Source: Oscillospiraceae bacterium
Lineage (GTDB): Bacteria; Bacillota; Clostridia; Oscillospirales; Acutalibacteraceae
Reading direction: 5' to 3'
DNA: 34,899 nt
NCBI GenBank assembly: GCA_902791335.1
Contig: CADAVL010000005.1
Location: 1 to 34,899 of the forward strand
Position 1 is the stretch's first letter; the number at the start of each line of letters is the position of its first letter. Shown one piece after another: positions 3,145-34,899 of the stretch. The position numbers and the translations under genes are program-made. The notes under the pieces were generated by a model. That model was not told where the DNA came from. It saw nothing but the letters and a program-made list of their open reading frames with translations, and ran no database searches.

Positions 3145-3316
3145 TTCACGGTTTTTCGGCTGGCGGCAGGGTTCGTGCTCGCGCGCATTGAAAATTTTTT
3201 CAATGCTCCCCGCGATACGGCGCGGCAAAACTCTTTTGCCGCGCCGTATCGCGGGGCTTGCCGCCTGCGGCGGCCGCGCGGGCGCGGACCCTGCCGCCAA
3301 CCGAAAAATCCGTGAA
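3145..3316. repeat. Cloverleaf palindromic element A
   Basis: The outer arms pair over about 40 positions with a few mismatches (TTCACGG at 3145-3151 with CCGTGAA at 3310-3316, and TGGCGGCAGGGT with ACCCTGCCGCCA inside). Between them are three hairpins. The first is at 3186-3205 (CATTGAAAA/TTTTCAATG). The second, at 3208-3256, is a perfect 23-bp stem with a 3-nt loop. The third is at 3260-3274 (GCCGCC-TGC-GGCGGC). It lies downstream of rarA and is non-coding by appearance. It shares its shape with elements B to G. Confidence 0.8.
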
Positions 3317-7997: not shown

Positions 7998-8224
7998 GGG
8001 ACGCCCCCGAAAAGACTGCGGAAAAAGGCAGAGAATCTCCGCGCGCCGCGTCGCCGAACGGCGACCGGCCGCAGGTGAGGAGCAAAACAAAATCTTGTTT
8101 TGCCCTTCACCCTGCGGCCGCGACACAAAAGCAAGGCCCAAAAGGCACCGCCATTTGAGCCTTGCTTTTGTGTCGGCGGCGCGCGGGAGCCCCTGCCTTT
8201 CTTCATAAACTGCGCGGGCGTCCC
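7998..8224. repeat. Cloverleaf palindromic element B
   Basis: The outer arms pair discontinuously: GGGACGCCC (7998-8006) with GGGCGTCCC (8216-8224), AAAGGCAG with CTGCCTTT, and CTCCGCGCGCCGC with GCGGCGCGCGGGAG. Three hairpins sit inside. They are 8050-8065 (GTCGCC-GAAC-GGCGAC), 8066-8120 (a long stem starting CGGCCGCAGG and ending CCTGCGGCCG), and 8121-8175 (CGACACAAAAGCAAGGC with its reverse complement). It lies between two convergent genes. Confidence 0.8.
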
Positions 8225-8844: not shown

Positions 8845-9045
8845 ATGGCTACAAAGAGCGTTTCGATCCGAATCGAAGAAGAAATGTTGAAAAAACTCTC
8901 TTATATTGCCGATTATGAAGGCCGCAGTGTAAACAGTCAGGTGCTTGTTTTGATCAGAGAAAATATCCAAAGCTTTGAAGAAAGCAACGGCGCGATCGAC
9001 GGCAGTATTAATCCCACCTTAAACGTAAAACCCACCAAAAAATAA
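8845..9045 (+). CDS. Arc/MetJ-type ribbon-helix-helix protein
   Basis: 66 aa with a GAGGTG ribosome site. KSVSIRIEEEMLKKLSYIADYEGRSVNSQVLVLIRENIQSFEE fits the ribbon-helix-helix fold: one beta strand (residues 4-10) and two helices, with the G-R-S-V-N turn before helix two. The C-terminal 16 residues are polar and probably disordered. Such proteins are dimeric DNA-binding regulators, and many are antitoxins or autoregulators. No toxin lies next to it; the divergent neighbour is the SLOG-like protein. A terminator follows directly. Confidence 0.75.
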   Translation: MATKSVSIRIEEEMLKKLSYIADYEGRSVNSQVLVLIRENIQSFEESNGAIDGSINPTLNVKPTKK

Positions 9046-14889: not shown

Positions 14890-15138
14890 TCTTTAAAAAC
14901 CTCTTTTATGGTGTGTGCCCGTCTTTCGGCTGGCTCTCGTCAGCCTTGGCAAACAATGAAAATTAAGAATCGGCCGCACGCGGCGGTCGTTGCTTTTTTT
15001 AATCGGTGGTTTCCGCTGTTCATTGTATCATAAATTTTTGTTAAAATCAATGAACAGACTTTAAAATTCCCGAACGAAAGCGCAAATTTTTCGTTCGGGT
15101 TTCGGTGCGGCCGCACTTTCTTGAAGCCGCCGAAAGGC
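14890..15138. other. Intergenic region upstream of gtrA
   Basis: There is no gene. A hairpin CCCGAACGAAA / TTTCGTTCGGG lies near 15068-15099. The motif TCGTCAGC occurs near 14930. No good promoter for gtrA was identified. The cloverleaf elements follow. Confidence 0.35.
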
Positions 15139-15268
15139 GGAAGATTATCCCCCTCGCGCCGTGCGGTGTTTTTCCAAAAAAGGGAAAACACCGCACGGGC
15201 GTCCCCGAAACGCCCGACGGGCGGTTCGGGGCATCCGCCGAAGGCGGCGGCGCGCAGGGGGAGCTTCC
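15139..15268. repeat. Cloverleaf palindromic element C1
   Basis: The outer arms are GGAAG...CCCCCTCGCGCC and GGCGCGCAGGGGG...CTTCC. Three hairpins are inside: 15159-15198 (CCGTGCGGTGTTTT with complement), 15203-15231 (CCCCGAAACGCCC / GGGCGGTTCGGGG) and 15235-15247 (CCGCC-GAA-GGCGG). Bases 15235-15260 are identical to 21102-21127 in element D, while the other two hairpins differ in sequence. Confidence 0.8.
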
Positions 15269-15397
15269 GGCTTCCCTGCGGCTAAGGTGCTTTGCTCCGT
15301 CTTTTTCTTTCCTGCCAAAGCACAAAAGCAGCGAAATACCAAAACAGGTTTTGTCAGTCTGTCCGTTCGGCTTGCCACTTCTTTTTTTAAAATCTGC

Positions 15398-15519
15398 GAA
15401 TACCGACAGCGCCCTTTCGCGCGTTTGGCGTTTTTTAAAAACGCCGTGCGGGGCGAACCGTTTCGGTTCGACCCGTGTCGCCTTCGGCGACAACGCGCGA
15501 AAGGGCGCTGCCGGTATTC
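15398..15519. repeat. Cloverleaf palindromic element C2
   Basis: This is the clearest copy. The 28-bp outer arms at 15398-15425 and 15492-15519 have a single mismatch. The interior is filled by three hairpins: 15427-15445 (GGCG...CGCC with T/A stem), 15454-15470 (CGAACCG-TTT-CGGTTCG) and 15477-15491 (GTCGCC-TTC-GGCGAC). This is a four-way junction in outline. Confidence 0.85.
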
Positions 15520-15586
15520 ACAGGGCTTTTAAGCTGTCACAAAATGCCGCCCGAACCGCAAAAAATTCCACGCTGAAAATCGGCTT

Positions 15587-20998: not shown

Positions 20999-21156
20999 CC
21001 CCCGACTGCGAGCAAACCGGAAGCTTCCCCCTGCGCGCTAATCGGCGTTTCCCATGCGGGAAACGCCGATTTTAGCCAAAACGCCGTAGGCGTTTTGGCT
21101 GCCGCCGAAGGCGGCGGCGCGCAGGGGAAAGCTTCCGGTTTGCTCACGGTCGGGGG
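20999..21156. repeat. Cloverleaf palindromic element D
   Basis: The outer arms are nearly perfect: CCCCCGACTGCGAGCAAACC... at the left and GGTTTGCTCACGGTCGGGGG at the right, extending inward through CGGAAGCTT and CCCCTGCGCGC. Three hairpins fill the centre: 21040-21071 (14-bp perfect stem AATCGGCGTTTCCC), 21075-21099 (GCCAAAACGCC-GTA-GGCGTTTTGGC) and 21101-21115 (GCCGCC-GAA-GGCGGC). Confidence 0.85.
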
Positions 21157-21311: not shown

Positions 21312-21496
21312 AGGGCACCCGCGCGCGGCACGCGGAGCAGTGCGTCCGCCCCAAAACCGGAAATTCCGGTTTTGGGGCGGCTTGGTCGACTTTATCGGCC
21401 GGAGATTTAAAGCGCCGCGTTGCCCCGCTCAGGCGACCGCAGGAACGCGGCCGCCGTTGTCGCCTTTTTTAAAAAAGCGACAGTGCCGCGCGCCCT
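21312..21496. repeat. Structured palindromic element E (homologue of F)
   Basis: Outer arms AGGGC...GCGCGCGGCAC and GTGCCGCGC-GCCCT enclose a sub-cloverleaf. Its inner arm GCGGAGCAGTGCG pairs with GCGTTGCCCCGC. Inside are a perfect 15-bp hairpin at 21346-21380 and a short GGTCGA/TCGGCC hairpin at 21384-21399. A second domain follows, with the GGCGACCGC hairpin from 21432 and a GTCGC/GCGAC hairpin. Bases 21404-21450 are identical to 26219-26265 in element F. Confidence 0.8.
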
Positions 21497-21562
21497 ATCA
21501 TCAGTTCAAGTTTCAAAGCACGCGAACCGCCGAACAAAAATCCTCTGCTTTATAAAAGAAAG

Positions 21563-21599
21563 GGTGCCACCGCAGTTTTGCACTTTTTGCGGTTGCACC
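21563..21599. terminator. Bidirectional terminator downstream of the GH2 gene
   Basis: GGTGCCACCGCA pairs with TGCGGTTGCACC (one G-T wobble). T5CTTTATT follows on the plus strand and CTTTCTTTT on the minus strand. On the minus strand it lies about 180 bp past the GH2 stop. Confidence 0.7.
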
Positions 21600-21778
21600 T
21601 TTTTCTTTATTCCTTTATTTATGTAGCGCTGTCCAATGAGCAGTAAAAGAATTTCAAACAACGGCTTTTGAAAAATTCTTCTGTTTTTTTCGAAACCGCT
21701 CCGGCGCTTTTCGTGCCGCATTTGGCACCCAGACTCTGCGTAATAAGCTGACGAGCGCCGCACCTAAGCGCCTTTTTT

Positions 21779-24124
21779 TCAGTTCTTGTTGTCCGGGCGC
21801 AGGGTAATACTCGCGTAGCCGCAGTTTGCGCTTTCGGCCGTCAGGGTAAACGCCGTGTCCTTTTGCGGCTTTACACAAACCGCAATTTTGCCCATATACA
21901 TCTGCCGATTGGGGCAGCTCACGCGAACGTGGTCGGTATTATCGGAGCCGGTGCCCACGATCTTTGCAGGTGCGGACACCGAAAACCGCACAAACTCCGC
22001 CGCGTTTGGCACCGCGCGTCCGTTTTCATCCACCGCTTCAAGGGTGAAAAGCGCGAGATCCTCGCCGTTGAAGCAAAACGGCGCTGTTTTTGTGAACCGC
22101 AGCTTTTGGGGCTTCCCGGTAGTTACCCGCTCGTCCTCTGCTACTGCTTTTCCGTTTTTATAACCCACTACTTTCAGCGTTCCCGGCTGATAGGCTACCT
22201 GCCACTCGCCGCGGCCGTATTTTTCAATCTGTTTTTTTCCAAGCGATACACCGTTTAAGAAAAGCTCCAGCTGATCGCAGTTGGTGTAAACCGTCACCGG
22301 CAGGGGCTGACCCTCTAAGCCCTCAAAATTCCAGTGCGGCACAAGGTGCGCCATTGGCTTTTCCGACCAGTGCGAAAGATTTTGATAAAACACGCCTTTT
22401 TTCTGCAAATAGAGGTCGATTGCACCCGAAGCCGAGCAAACGCGCGGCCAGGTCGCCTCGCCGCGATGCTCCACACCAATCCACTGATAGCAGCCGAATA
22501 CATAAGGCGTTGAGCGCAAAAAGCGGTAGGTCTTTTCGCGTCCTAAAAACCATTCGCTCGCATCCTTGTCGTATTCCCTCAGTCGTCCGCCGTCGGCAAA
22601 ATCGGGGAAATTCCAATCCCTTGTGGTGCCGGTCGCACAGCATTCCGAAGAAAACACCGGCTTTTTCGGGTAAGCTTTGTGAACCTCATCGTAAAGGTTT
22701 AAATTATAATTAATGCCGATCACGTCGCAGTCCTCATAAATAGTGGAAAACTGCGGTTTTCGGTCTTCGGCGGCAGTGATAAAACGAGTGTCGTCCAGCT
22801 TTTCGATCTCGGCCGACAGCGAACGGTGGATCCGCCGCCCGGCGTCGCTTAAAAAATAAGGTTCTTCGTTGCCGGTGGACCACAGAATGACCGAGGGGCG
22901 GTTGCGGTCGCGTTTTACAAGCGCGCTTAATTGTTTACGGCTTTCCTCGGTATTTTCAAACCAGCGCATTTCGTCCATAACCAAAAAGCCCATTTCGTCG
23001 AGCGCGTCCATGTAAGCAGCCGTTTGCTCATAGTGACTGGTTCTGTAGCCGTTTGCACCCATTTCTTTTAAAAGTGAAATCTTATACCGCGCAATATTCT
23101 CCGGCACAGCAAGGCCTGTAAGCCCGAAATCCTGATGACAGCAAACACCGTTGATGAACACCTCTTTTCCGTTGAGCAGCATTCCTTTTTCGGCGGTGAT
23201 CTCCACGGTCCGAAAGCCGATTCGGGTCGTATTGCAGTCGGTACTGCCGTCGGAGCCTGAAAGCGCTGTTTTTATCGTGTAAAGATTCGGGTTGTCGCAG
23301 TCCCACAAAAGCGGCGCTTTCACCACAGCGGAATAATTTACGGTGGCTTTTCCCCTTGCCGGAATTTCACCTTTTGCCGTGGCCTCGGCCGCCACCGTGC
23401 CATCCGGCGCGATCACCTGACTTTTTAAAGTAACGGTTTCGGACCTGAAACCCGCGTTTACACATTCGGTTTTGAAATTCACCTGAAAATCGCGGTCGTT
23501 GATCTTCTCATAAGGCGCGTAAACGCCGTAAAGATCAATGGCTACAGTGTCGGTCACGGTTAAATAAACATCTCTGTAAATTCCGCCGCCGCCATACCAC
23601 CAACCCTCAAACTGATCGGTCACATTCACATAAACCGCCAGCACATTTTCGCGGTCGTACCAGACATAGTCGCTGACGTCAAGCTCAAAAGTATTGTAGC
23701 TTGAAAAATTCCGTCCGATCAGACAGCCGTTTAAATACACCGTACTTTGCCCCGTTACGCCCTCAAACCGGAGCAAAACGCGGCGGTCCTTTTCTGTACC
23801 GTCCGGCAAAGAAAAGTGCTTGCGATACCAGGCGTTTTCATAGTGAAAATACCCCAGCGCCTGATTTTCGTCCTCCTGATTGTCGCTTTCAATGATATAA
23901 TCGTGCGGCAGCGACACTTTACGCCAGTCATTTTTATAAACCATATCGCCCGGCATGGCGCGGTAGGCGTCCTCAAAATCGGGCAGACCGTAGGCGGCAG
24001 GACCGGATTTTTTGCGCTCGGTCTTGGCCTGAGAATACACAAAGCCTTTATCTTTCGACAATGGATTTTCAATCTCCCCTTTGTGAAACAGCCAGTCTTC
24101 GTTGAGTTTTATCTCGGTACGCAT
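21779..24124 (-). CDS. Glycoside hydrolase family 2 enzyme, beta-galactosidase-like
   Basis: 781 aa from the second of two nearby ATGs, which lies seven bases after GGAGG; the first ATG abuts the ribosome site. Domain order is GH2 sugar-binding (about 45-195, with SLPHDY, GYFHYENAWYRKHF and NVTDQFEGWWYGGGGIYRDV), an immunoglobulin-like domain (about 200-305), a TIM barrel (about 306-600) and C-terminal DUF4982/Ig-like domains. Catalytic residues are acid/base Glu420 in WSTGNEEPYF and nucleophile Glu494 in FSSECC. No signal peptide is present, so the enzyme is cytoplasmic and acts on imported oligosaccharides. Specificity (galactoside, glucuronide, other) is not readable. A divergent AraC regulator suggests sugar induction. 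Confidence 0.92.
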   Translation of the reverse strand: MRTEIKLNEDWLFHKGEIENPLSKDKGFVYSQAKTERKKSGPAAYGLPDFEDAYRAMPGDMVYKNDWRKVSLPHDYIIESDNQEDENQALGYFHYENAWYRKHFSLPDGTEKDRRVLLRFEGVTGQSTVYLNGCLIGRNFSSYNTFELDVSDYVWYDRENVLAVYVNVTDQFEGWWYGGGGIYRDVYLTVTDTVAIDLYGVYAPYEKINDRDFQVNFKTECVNAGFRSETVTLKSQVIAPDGTVAAEATAKGEIPARGKATVNYSAVVKAPLLWDCDNPNLYTIKTALSGSDGSTDCNTTRIGFRTVEITAEKGMLLNGKEVFINGVCCHQDFGLTGLAVPENIARYKISLLKEMGANGYRTSHYEQTAAYMDALDEMGFLVMDEMRWFENTEESRKQLSALVKRDRNRPSVILWSTGNEEPYFLSDAGRRIHRSLSAEIEKLDDTRFITAAEDRKPQFSTIYEDCDVIGINYNLNLYDEVHKAYPKKPVFSSECCATGTTRDWNFPDFADGGRLREYDKDASEWFLGREKTYRFLRSTPYVFGCYQWIGVEHRGEATWPRVCSASGAIDLYLQKKGVFYQNLSHWSEKPMAHLVPHWNFEGLEGQPLPVTVYTNCDQLELFLNGVSLGKKQIEKYGRGEWQVAYQPGTLKVVGYKNGKAVAEDERVTTGKPQKLRFTKTAPFCFNGEDLALFTLEAVDENGRAVPNAAEFVRFSVSAPAKIVGTGSDNTDHVRVSCPNRQMYMGKIAVCVKPQKDTAFTLTAESANCGYASITLRPDNKN

Positions 24125-24230
24125 AAGCATTCCTCCTCTATTTTATTTTTAAAAATTGTTTCTATGGTTCCAAATCCTCTCAAGAGGTCCGCGTTTTGAA
24201 CGGTTTTTTGCAAATATTTTTAGATTTACG

Positions 24231-24306
24231 CCAATTTAACGCTTAAATGTATCGCCAATTTGCAAATTAACAGCTTGTAAAGCCGCGCGTGCTGTGCTAC
24301 AATTGG
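24231..24306. promoter_or_regulatory. Candidate AraC-binding sites between araC-type gene and GH2 gene
   Basis: Two direct GCCAATTT copies are spaced about one to two helical turns apart (near 24231 and 24254). An exact palindrome AATTTGCAAATT overlaps the second, and an inverted AATTGGC lies near 24303. Clustered half-sites in a divergent spacer fit an AraC-type activator. Confidence 0.45.
24275..24303 (+). promoter_or_regulatory. Promoter of the AraC-family gene
   Basis: TTGTAA and TACAAT are separated by 17 bp on the plus strand, about 140 bp before the start codon. Confidence 0.6.
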
Positions 24307-24444
24307 CAAAATGCAAACGCCCGATAAAAGACGATCAAATTCCAAACGGGTGCAATTTAGACAAAAGAGCGCCGATCCCGTCACGCCTGTTTGCCTAAAG
24401 AAAAGCGCCGCCGCAAATTTTAAAAAAGGAGCGAGTACCAAAAA

Positions 24445-25341
24445 ATGATCTACTACCGTTTTCCAAAGGAAAATCTTCCCCACGTGCGCAACACCTCGCT
24501 TGCAACCTTAATCGGTGGGCCGCACGTTACCAGAACCGTGGAGGAAACCATTGTATATTATCTCATTGAGGGGCGGCTTTCCCTGCAAAGCGGCGGTGAA
24601 GAGGTTGTGATGACGCCGGGCGACGTACATATTTTCAGCATTGGAGAATTTCAAAAGCCTTTAAAAACCGAGGACTGCAAATACTATTTCCTGCACTTTT
24701 TTGAAGACCTCCAAACGGTGAAAATGAGCGCCGGCGAGGCCGCGGAATACTACAAAGCAACACAAAACTATTATTTAAGAAGCGATCACACCAAAAAGCC
24801 CGAGCAAACGGCCGAACCGCCGCTTTTTGTGCCGAAGCATTTTCATATCGGCGGCACGGCTTACGAAAAAAGAATTGTGCGGTGCTTTAAAAGCGCCGAT
24901 CTGAGCCGATTTACCCCAAAGGATAATTTTTACACCTTTTCGAGCAATTTAAAGGCGGCCGAAATCATGCTGTTGCTCCACCGTTGTCAAAGCGAGGCAA
25001 ACTGCCAAAGTGAAAAAGGCTGTTTCAGCGAAAAAACGGCAAGGCTCATCGGCGAATATCTCAATCATCACCTGGAGACAAAGCTATGCGGCAAGGAATT
25101 GGAAAAAATTTTTGGATACAGCTTTGATCACATGAACCGCCGCTTTAAGGCAGTAACCGGAAAAACCATTTATGCTTATTTGCAAAATGCGCGCATTGAG
25201 CAGGCAAAGCTCCTGCTTTACACCCAAAGCGCCACGGTGTCGGAAGTGGCACAAAAAACCGGATTTGGCGACATTTATCATTTTTCAAAGGCCTTTAAGC
25301 GGCTCACCGGCATGACGCCGAGCGAATATAAGCACCGTTGA
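24445..25341 (+). CDS. AraC-family transcriptional regulator
   Basis: 298 aa with AAAGGAG 13 bases before the ATG. The N-terminal part (about 10-100) is a cupin-like sugar-sensing domain (YYLIEGRLSLQSGGEEVVMTPGDVHIFSIGEF). The C-terminal 100 residues hold two helix-turn-helix motifs: GKELEKIFGYSFDHMNRRFKAVTGKTIYAYLQNARIEQAK and ATVSEVAQKTGFGDIYHFSKAFKRLTGMTPSEYKHR, the canonical AraC signature. It is divergent from the GH2 glycosidase across 320 bp containing repeated half-sites, and most likely activates that gene in response to its sugar. Confidence 0.92.
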   Translation: MIYYRFPKENLPHVRNTSLATLIGGPHVTRTVEETIVYYLIEGRLSLQSGGEEVVMTPGDVHIFSIGEFQKPLKTEDCKYYFLHFFEDLQTVKMSAGEAAEYYKATQNYYLRSDHTKKPEQTAEPPLFVPKHFHIGGTAYEKRIVRCFKSADLSRFTPKDNFYTFSSNLKAAEIMLLLHRCQSEANCQSEKGCFSEKTARLIGEYLNHHLETKLCGKELEKIFGYSFDHMNRRFKAVTGKTIYAYLQNARIEQAKLLLYTQSATVSEVAQKTGFGDIYHFSKAFKRLTGMTPSEYKHR

Positions 25342-25391
25342 TCTTTATTGTAAAAATTTCTTCGGGTTTTTCAACGCTTTAAATAAAGATC
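25340..25391. repeat. Inverted repeat after the AraC gene
   Basis: GATCTTTATT (overlapping the stop codon) and AATAAAGATC form a perfect 10-bp stem around a loop with an inner AAAAAtttcttcggGTTTTT fold. It may act as a terminator, but T-run support is weak. Confidence 0.4.
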
Positions 25392-25501
25392 GGCCCGACA
25401 AACAGCCGACAAAATACCGAAATCAAGCGCCTTTTGATTTGAGGATTTTTTGGAACCGACCTTTTTGAAAACGGATCCTGTAAGCCGTGCTGCGGAGCAT
25501 T

Positions 25502-25789
25502 TCATCCAAGACCGCCGCCGAGCGCCAGACTTAACAGCACCAGCATACCGTTTACGATCATGTTTAAAAGCACGGTGGGAATGCCGATGACGGTATTGGA
25601 TACATTTACTGCCGTTACAGCGGAGGGCGAAACGTAGGTCAGTGCAACGGTGTTCACCGTGCCGAGCAACAGGTTAAAAACAAGATTCATGAAAATGGGG
25701 AAGGACAAGGACCAGAGCTTTAAGGTGCCGCTTTCATCCTGCAAGGTGCAAAGAGCTGGGTCAAACAAACGTAACTTTCGGCTTTGCAC
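25502..25789 (-). pseudogene. N-terminal remnant of a MATE-family efflux gene
   Basis: 95 codons from a GTG eight bases after AAAGGAGG. LWSLSFPIFMNLVFNLLLGTVNTVALTYVSPSAVTAVNVSNTVIGIPTVLLNMIVNGMLVLLSLALGGGLG matches the first two helices of a MATE multidrug/Na-coupled transporter, whose members are about 440-460 residues. The frame then ends, and the following DNA shows no continuation in any frame, only short AT- and hairpin-rich sequence. The break falls after the conserved GGG motif where ...AISRALG is expected. It is a truncated, presumably dead copy with an intact translation start. A small expressed peptide cannot be excluded. Confidence 0.8.
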
Positions 25790-26103
25790 GGGATCACCCT
25801 CCTTTTGCGCTTTTTGAAAGTTTATTTAAAAGCCTTTTTTCGCCGCGGCACAAATAACCGATCAGAGCCTTTTTTCTTATTATCCCAAAATCGGCAAAAG
25901 AGTAAATGGCAAAAAGCGATATACTTTGGCAGGTTTTCATTTTAAAAGTCGATATTTTACAAATGAAAAGCTTTTATTGGCGGTTTTCGCCGTTTGAAAC
26001 AGCCGCCGAAAAAAGCCCAAAAACGCCCGACGCACAAAAGATAAGAAAACCCGGTTTTCCTAAAAAATTTGTTTCGCCGAAAAAACGATTGAAAGCAGTG
26101 CAC
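25790..26103. other. Intergenic stretch upstream of the MATE remnant
   Basis: No gene is supported. An open frame through 25906-26487 crosses element F and the folT terminator, so it looks accidental. No repeat beyond the adjoining element F was seen. Confidence 0.4.
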
Positions 26104-26341
26104 GCCCGAACGCTTTTTTTTAAAAATCCGCCCCCTGATCGCGCGGCACGCGGGGCAATGCGACCCGATAAGCCGAAAAATTTCGGCCTTTCGGGATCGG
26201 CCGACTTTGTCGGCCGGCGATTTAAAGCGCCGCGTTGCCCCGCTCAGGCGACCGCAGGAACGCGGTCGCCGCCGTCGCCTTTTAAAAAAGGCGACAGTGT
26301 CGCGCGATCAGGGGGCGGATTTTTTCAAAAAAGTGTCGGGC
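26104..26341. repeat. Structured palindromic element F (homologue of E)
   Basis: The outer arms are long and almost continuous: GCCCGA at 26104-26109 with TCGGGC at 26336-26341, T/A-rich tracts, then ATCCGCCCCCTGATCGCGCG with its complement. The inner arm is GCGGGGCAATGC with GCGTTGCCCCGC. Hairpins are at 26163-26195 (CCCGA...GCCGAAA), 26199-26215 (GGCCGAC-TTT-GTCGGCC), one from 26247 to about 26270 (GGCGACCGC-AGGAAC-GCGGTCGCC), and GTCGCCTTTT/AAAAGGCGAC. A 47-bp core is identical to element E. Confidence 0.85.
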
Positions 26342-26551: not shown

Positions 26552-27085
26552 CTATAACGAAAAGGCCTTTACGCGGCGCAGACCAACCGCAGTGAAATGC
26601 AAAGTGACCAATTGAACAGCGGCCATTAAAACGCACTGAACCGCGCGCGAAAGCACGATCACGCCGAACGATTTTTGCGGCGTCAAAAGACAGATCCACA
26701 GCGAATTCATCAATAGACTGCAAAAGATCTGGTTAAACGCCACCGGAATGAGCGTAAAGCGAAAACGGTAGGGCGTCCTGATCAAAAATAAGCCGAACAC
26801 GGCGCCGCTGAGTGCCGCCGTGAAGGTATAGCCCGGAAAATACGGTCCGGTAGGAAAGATCAGCGCGCCCAAAAGGTCGCCGAGGCCGCCCACCAAAGCA
26901 CCGCCCAGAGGGCCCAAAATCATGGCGCCGAGCGCGACGGGCAGAAAGGAAAAGGAAATTCTTGTGATCGGGGTGCTGATAGAAAGCAACCGCCCCAGCA
27001 CGATGTTGAGCGCCACCATCAGCGCGAGCAGTGAAAGGCTTTTCGGGGTGAGCCTTCCTTTTAAGAATGTTTTTTTAATGTCCAT
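26552..27085 (-). CDS. folT: Folate-family ECF transporter S component
   Basis: 177 aa from an ATG preceded by GGGAGGA; longer upstream frames are excluded because that DNA is the riboswitch leader. Five to six hydrophobic segments and the motifs SISTPITRISFSFLPVALGAMILGPLGGALVGGLGDLLGALIFPTGPYFPGYTFTAALSGAVFGLFL match FolT-type substrate-binding membrane subunits of energy-coupling-factor transporters. The shared EcfA/A'/T module must be encoded elsewhere. The THF riboswitch directly upstream supports folate rather than another vitamin as substrate. Expression should fall when reduced folate is plentiful. Confidence 0.92.
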   Translation of the reverse strand: MDIKKTFLKGRLTPKSLSLLALMVALNIVLGRLLSISTPITRISFSFLPVALGAMILGPLGGALVGGLGDLLGALIFPTGPYFPGYTFTAALSGAVFGLFLIRTPYRFRFTLIPVAFNQIFCSLLMNSLWICLLTPQKSFGVIVLSRAVQCVLMAAVQLVTLHFTAVGLRRVKAFSL

Positions 27086-27147
27086 AAAAAATCCTCCCAA
27101 TTCTTTACGAGAACATCTCTGAGCCATAAAAGAATCGGGAGGGTGCA
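27074..27147 (-). promoter_or_regulatory. Shine-Dalgarno-sequestering hairpin of folT
   Basis: CCTCCCGATTCTTT upstream pairs with AAAGAATTGGGAGG, which contains the folT ribosome site. The anti-SD strand also has an alternative short pairing (ATCGG/CCGAT) with sequence nearer the riboswitch. This indicates translational control, with the sequestered form expected when ligand is bound. Confidence 0.7.
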
Positions 27148-27167
27148 ATTTTCTTCCGATAAGTATG

Positions 27168-27297
27168 ACAGCGGGATGCGACCGCCGAACCGCAAGAAAA
27201 CACTTTATTTTAAAAACCCTTGCTTTCGTGTTTTGCTTTTCGTCCCACCGGCAACTCCCCGTCCGGTCGGCACTTAACGCTCGACTGTCTACTCTGT
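27168..27297 (-). ncRNA. THF (tetrahydrofolate) riboswitch, folT type
   Basis: Read on the minus strand, the element opens with ACAG-AGTAGAC and GCGTTAAGTG. It has a P3 arm CCGACCGG...CCGG and an ACGAAAAGC segment, and closes with GGTCGCATCCCGCTGT. These match the conserved blocks of THF-I riboswitches (GAGTAGA, GCGTTAAGTG, ACGAAGCGAGAGC, GCATCC). P1 pairs as ACAG/CTGT instead of GGAG/CTCC, a compensatory change. One peripheral arm is extended (AACACGAAAGC...GTGTTTTCTTGC). It sits about 80 bases before folT. Confidence 0.92.
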
Positions 27298-27570
27298 AAA
27301 TATTTCGCCGGCAAAATTTCTTGAAACCGCTCGCGGTTTTAGCTTTTGATCTCGCCGACGAAAACAAGTATACCGCACTTTTTCATAAAATGCAAGTGCA
27401 AAAGCTTAGCAAGGTGCAAAATCGACTGGCGGATCAGGGATCTTTGCGGCGGCGCGCTTTGAGAACAAAGGAAAAACCGAGCACCTCCCGCTCGAAACCT
27501 AGGATCGGCACTGCTTTTTAAAAGTTGATTTTGTTAAAATGGAAAATTTCCCGAACTTCGCAATATTCGA
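27298..27570. other. Intergenic region upstream of the riboswitch
   Basis: A promoter for the folT leader should lie here on the minus strand. TATACTTG is present near 27370, but no convincing -35/-10 pair was settled. There is no gene. The right end merges into element G. Confidence 0.3.
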
Positions 27571-27732
27571 TTTTTTCAAAAAGACTTCGGTCGCGCTCGG
27601 TGCCGCGCTTTGCCGCCGAAGGCGGCGCCGGAACGGAATTGTTCCGGCAAGGGCCCGGCGGTTTTTCCGAGGCGAAAAACCGCCGGGCCCAAAGCGCGGC
27701 ACCGAGCGCGACCGAAGCCTTTTTGGAAAAAA
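27571..27732. repeat. Cloverleaf palindromic element G
   Basis: Outer arms of 28 bp without mismatch (27585-27612 and 27690-27717) extend through TTTTTTCAAAAAG / CTTTTTGGAAAAAA. Three hairpins follow one another inside: 27612-27626 (GCCGCC-GAA-GGCGGC), 27627-27648 (GCCGGAAC-GTTCCGGC) and 27651-27690 (17-bp perfect stem GGGCCCGGCGGTTTTTC). It lies between folT and the LCP-like gene. Confidence 0.88.
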
Positions 27733-34664: not shown

Positions 34665-34820
34665 TTGTGTATTTTTTTGTAAATGAGGCGGTTTATGCGA
34701 CTCGGGTTTTAATGTTCGGGAAACCATCAATATTTTAAAGGTTGAAAATGCCGAAACAAGAAGTTCGCAGCGAGTTGCCCCCTTTTTTGATCCTGCCGGC
34801 AGCCCGTCGCCCGCGCAAAA
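34665..34820. other. Intergenic sequence downstream of nrdD
   Basis: No gene is supported. A 36-codon frame (34748-34858) has a weak AAAGG site but runs through the following hairpin. No repeat or regulatory site was recognised. Confidence 0.35.
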
Positions 34821-34836
34821 CGACCGTGCCGCAAGT

Positions 34837-34880
34837 TTTGCGGCGCGGTCGTTTTAAAAAACAAGCGGAAAGCTTGTTTT
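34837..34880. terminator. Hairpins at the right edge, probably terminators
   Basis: AAAACGACCG-TGCCGCAA pairs with TTGCGGCGCGGTCGTTTT around a short loop (from about 34818). A second stem, AAAACAAGC-GGAAA-GCTTGTTTTTT, follows at about 34857-34880. T and A tracts flank both, so they may work in either direction between nrdD and a gene beyond the window. Confidence 0.55.
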
Positions 34881-34899
34881 TTCGCCGTTTTCGGCGGCG

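Follow-up and report, generated by a model that had tools for sequence, protein, structure and literature searches.

Elements E and F of the window (the whole stretch of 34,899 nucleotides that was analysed) are established as members of a dispersed class of polarised, co-varying cloverleaf repeats, which is abundant in this genome and placed near the 3' ends of genes. On balance, and with modest confidence, the two are best read as the sole copies of one subfamily within this set of non-coding, intergenic repeats, whose present form would reflect an old dispersal and stems rewritten by template switching.

Elements E and F

Both elements were delineated on the forward strand, with the following features (positions in the window):

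21320-21493 (+): element E, decayed cloverleaf with an outer stem of about 10 bp, an elaborated first arm, and M and S hairpins (fold and homology to F)
21346-21380 (+): first hairpin of E, swapped stem of 17 bp with a 1-nt loop, CCGCCCCAAAACCGGAA / TTCCGGTTTTGGGGCGG (inverted repeat I15, 100%)
21384-21400 (+): second small stem of E, GGTCGA/TCGGCC, with one U.G
21404-21450 (+): 47-bp identical core, copy E
26110-26336 (+): element F, full cloverleaf with outer arms 26110-26149 and 26297-26336 (fold and inverted repeat I3)
26150-26243 (+): first arm of F, stem GCGGGGCAA/TTGCCCCGC with inner hairpins (fold and inverted repeats)
26164-26195 (+): first hairpin of F, swapped stem, CCCGATAAGCCGAAA..TTTCGGCCTTTCGGG
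26219-26265 (+): 47-bp identical core, copy F
26247-26270 (+): second (M) hairpin of F, GGCGACCGC..GCGGTCGCC (fold)
26274-26295 (+): third (S) hairpin of F, GTCGCC..GGCGAC, the short one at one end

The fold of F has an energy of -155.9 kcal/mol (z -14.9) and that of E -115.6 kcal/mol (z -5.8); in each case 0 of 200 shuffles was as good. F matches the three-hairpin design of the class, its first arm being elaborated to a smaller branched stem. The first-pass annotation had reported that the two 47-bp cores are identical and that the similarity continues on both sides in the same orientation, and both points were borne out, the flanking similarity taking the form of a 96-nt direct repeat (90%). 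The homology as a whole covers 21322-21492 and 26140-26310, about 170 bp, and does not reach past the ends of the elements; flanking comparison found the sequences outside the elements unrelated to each other. Rather than marking the boundary of an element, as had been considered, the core spans the inner stem's 3' arm, a linker and the greater part of the second hairpin.

The first hairpin was described as different in the two copies and still paired or nearly so in each, and the neighbouring stem as GGTCGA/TCGGCC in E and GGCCGAC/GTCGGCC in F; both descriptions agree with the sequence. The outer arms pair in each copy, as had been stated, but they are not equivalent, the stem being about 40 bp in F (26110-26149 / 26297-26336, 90%) and only about 10 bp in E (21322-21331 / 21483-21492). 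Stem replacement or compensatory evolution had been proposed for the pair; the first hairpin supports replacement, while compensation is not shown by E and F. In a letter-by-letter alignment, and leaving the swapped hairpin aside, every difference within the shared stems affects a single side. The inner stem of E has two (A.C and G.U), its M hairpin has an A.C and its neighbouring stem a U.G, and the outer stem of F has one G.U. Because these differences are one-sided and the outer stem of E is mostly gone, the pair represents one swapped hairpin plus decay rather than compensatory evolution. With these corrections the earlier observation largely holds and is partly confirmed. The M hairpin of type A copy L078 was considered as a donor for the E hairpin (77% over 35 nt, E=0.003) and rejected as too weak.

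No copy of this sequence other than E and F was found in this genome. Homologues of the core were found neither in 60 relatives, where four weak matches were read as coding after their surroundings were inspected, nor in IMG/VR (exact pattern) or phages. In the absence of such matches, the proposal that stem changes among homologues are paired was checked on the sister subfamily only.

Co-variation in the main subfamily

This sister, or main, subfamily (type A) has at least 40 copies, whose identity to the query copy is 76-88%, none being an exact match; the number is a floor because 40 of 91 candidates were scored. The 29 copies that were aligned are about 79% identical, and the closest pair among them reaches 89%. 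In these copies the named structure is paired in 96.1% of cells (88.8% in shuffles) and 39 of 64 base pairs are changed on both sides (17 in shuffles), in keeping with the proposal of paired changes; 0 of 500 shuffles reached any of five measures, a comparison that relatedness can inflate, the measures counting pairs and types being least affected. Pairing falls to about 48% when the partner is slid by one base. Within a copy the arms mismatch at 9.5% (outer), 4.2% (L) and 9.0% (M), whereas corresponding arms of different copies diverge by 22.9%, 15.2% and 26.5%, respectively; the two sets of values would be alike if the arms drifted independently. Compensatory evolution is evident in this subfamily. 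The 138 two-sided changes comprise 88 transitions and 50 transversions, and the single changes 94 transitions and 33 transversions. Mismatches on the canonical strand show a modest excess of G.U over A.C (59 vs 35, p=0.017), which is not significant in other elements (21 vs 16). A loop-inversion test gave a weak signal that rests mostly on AAA/TTT loops. Two type A elements (L063:1509-1609 and window 21006-21102) match Rfam sraL at 31.4 and 26.5 bits, where the gathering score is 39; these matches are probably compositional.

The wider cloverleaf class

The genome was sampled as stretches amounting to about 808 kb of 2.1 Mb, and the inverted-repeat scan covered first 435 kb and then 808 kb. 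Members of the class are about 120-220 bp long, with an outer inverted repeat of 26-49 bp (mean 95% complementary) that closes a junction of usually three hairpins. When arms of at least 24 nt with gaps of 40-300 nt were counted with no folding filter, 55 inverted repeats were found in the 808 kb, against 4 in 1.57 Mb of relatives. Exactly three top-level domains are present in 38 of the 55, and about ten further ones have three hairpins and an ungapped arm that ended early. After the folding filter, three domains were counted in 37 of 37 elements. The shortest hairpin is never the middle one: it stands at an end in all 37, at the 3' side in 20 and at the 5' side in 17. Of 740 shuffled interiors, 108 had three domains, and in 43 of these the shortest domain was the middle one. 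A covariance model built from the main-subfamily alignment (R1) matched 64 distinct loci at E<=1e-3 in the 808 kb, as counted by hand from the match table. Many members share the design without alignable sequence. Further members in the window are as follows:

3152-3308: cloverleaf of the same class, sequence unrelated to E and F (R1 E=3.4e-10)
8012-8212: cloverleaf-like element (R1 E=8.8e-5)
15124-15284 (+): diverged cloverleaf of the main subfamily, type A (R1 E=2.6e-18)
15394-15523: cloverleaf of the same class (inverted-repeat search and R1)
20999-21156 (+): cloverleaf of the main subfamily, type A, immediately left of E (R1 E=3.5e-24)
27571-27731 (-): cloverleaf of the same class, with the short hairpin first on the + strand

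A weak partial R1 match (E=0.049) lies at window positions 34779-34899; the contig ends inside it, and the repeats may therefore break the assembly there. Stretches shared between elements mostly join like positions (O-O, L-L, M-M), with a minority across positions, and for this reason a shuffling of modules between elements was rejected.

Distribution

The repeat set is apparently lineage-specific, as judged against genomes that include none other of the genus. In 300 genomes of the family, likewise with no other member of the genus and run with 9 candidates scored per genome and stricter filters, R1 matched this genome only. In 92 loci (1.28 Mb) from relatives and one viral contig it matched nothing at E<=0.1. 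The main subfamily was found neither in 393 further genomes from the order, with 2 candidates per genome scored, nor in genome contigs searched with one 22-mer, nor in plasmids. An IMG/VR match to this 22-mer (L209) contains no cloverleaf and looks like chance. One relative's locus (L152:7866-8023) carries an inverted repeat with an arm of 22 nt and three hairpins, possibly of similar design. At gathering score, Rfam reports only a THF riboswitch within the window, and the E, F and type A loci give sub-threshold matches only. The riboswitch (27167-27298, minus strand, 75.8 bits) is located at the beginning of a gene (26552-27367, minus strand) that encodes an ECF-transporter S component. Among open-licence papers, no cloverleaf repeat of such design was found described.

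Genomic context

Gene calling relied on a simple codon-usage script, which makes the gene edges approximate; the context of F was set to convergent by hand, the script having missed the ECF transporter gene. The elements occupy gaps between genes, in either orientation. A small open frame at window 8846-9044 (+) resembles, by eye, a ribbon-helix-helix protein. In tandem gaps, 17 of 18 elements are nearer the 3' end of the upstream gene, with median distances of 144 nt to the stop codon vs 506 nt. Convergent gaps hold 12 of 34 elements, whereas 37 of the 225 gaps that are 250 nt or longer are convergent (p=0.008). The most likely use of the elements would be at gene ends, as bidirectional 3'-end structures or insulation.

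The placement near gene 3' ends, together with the strong co-variation and the G.U excess on the canonical strand of the main subfamily, are also what would be expected of a structured RNA under selection, in which a cloverleaf in 3' UTRs ends transcription or protects the mRNA and compensatory point mutations alone keep the pairing. We regard this as possible, at a clear minority of the probability. Orientation relative to transcription shows no significant bias (12 co, 6 anti), G.U and A.C mismatches of the outer arms are similar in the transcribed sense (13 and 16), and many of the two-sided changes are transversions, all of which argue against it. A terminator consensus scan was modestly above shuffles (26 vs 16.6, sd 3.9). 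An intrinsic terminator would be expected closer than the median of 144 nt past the stop codon, and the outer stems of 26-49 bp do not resemble one.

Mobility and comparison with known repeats

A second alternative, which we consider doubtful, is selfish mobile DNA comparable to REPINs or to IS200/IS605 elements, with non-autonomous single-stranded hairpins moved by an HUH (Y1) transposase that needs the pairing. It would account for the high copy number, the intergenic location in both orientations and the lack of target duplications, and one Y1_Tnp gene is present in the genome (a 166-aa frame at approximately L090:1453-1929, minus strand), read as a putative IS200-type TnpA. That gene is single-copy, however, and no cloverleaf was noted on reading its 3.4-kb surroundings; no phage or plasmid carrier was found; and no near-identical young copies occur among those aligned, the closest pair being at 89%, although identical copies could have been merged in a short-read assembly. 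The outer arms of 26-49 nt are terminal inverted repeats as in a MITE of a DDE transposon, and the flanks of 28 copies show no excess of repeats that would represent a target-site duplication.

REP/BIME elements and REPINs with RAYT transposases (PMC3116915, PMC3733652) are likewise high-copy, extragenic inverted-repeat DNA with predicted hairpins. REP sequences are 20-40 bp, however, and a REPIN is a REP doublet forming one hairpin, whereas the present elements are about 120-220 bp, with three hairpins in a long stem and very diverged copies; REP and REPIN come with RAYT, while here no RAYT was identified, the sole Y1_Tnp gene having been read by eye. The 92 stem-loop sequence families of bacterial genomes of Cozzuto et al. 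2008 (PMC2267715) are also intergenic repeats with a common predicted secondary structure; many copies here have the design in common but no sequence that can be aligned. Palindromic repeats of Volvox (PMC2670323) and the RHE hairpin elements of sponges (PMC2800124) are reported as dispersed intergenic hairpins of organelle genomes, with similar structure and differing sequence. The Volvox repeats are single short hairpins of 14-79 nt in plastid DNA, whereas the present elements are multi-armed and bacterial.

A recent segmental duplication of E and F with sequencing differences, named in the first-pass annotation as what would overturn its reading and suggested by the 47-bp identity and the 90% over 96 nt, is refuted because the flanks are unrelated; homology ending at the element ends, one hairpin fully different yet paired, and the missing outer-arm sequence of E make it highly improbable as well.

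Proposed origin of the rewritten stems

In the favoured reading, an old subfamily whose stems were rewritten by template switching, the elements would have been mobile in the past and their copies would descend from an old dispersal. A stem would then be rewritten in one step, one arm being copied from the other at the DNA level by template switching at hairpins, and fold-breaking changes would be eliminated; E would afterwards have lost most of its outer stem. Template switching is described as making and mending RNA hairpins (PMC8794818), and under it a single event is predicted to yield new perfect stems and paired changes of several bases; there it is a mutational mechanism reported in RNA genes rather than an element family, and its action here is what we infer. 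It offers a simple explanation for both the swapped perfect hairpins and the transversional paired changes; transversions cannot be bridged by G.U intermediates. No direct stem-copying event was captured, the loop-inversion signal is weak, two-sided changes are expected from selection on structure alone too, and the uncompensated changes in the shared stems of E and F speak against this reading; selection for structure may act alongside template switching.

An unlikely further proposal is that of a new bacterial repeat class in which the polarised cloverleaf fold, and not the sequence, is inherited, the arms being rewritten wholesale by replication-coupled copying so that the fold outlasts alignability. 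If this were true, one genome would offer dozens of cases in which stems have changed and pairing was kept, and would let one ask whether paired changes are two point mutations or a single copying event, a question that is open for RNA genes (PMC8794818).
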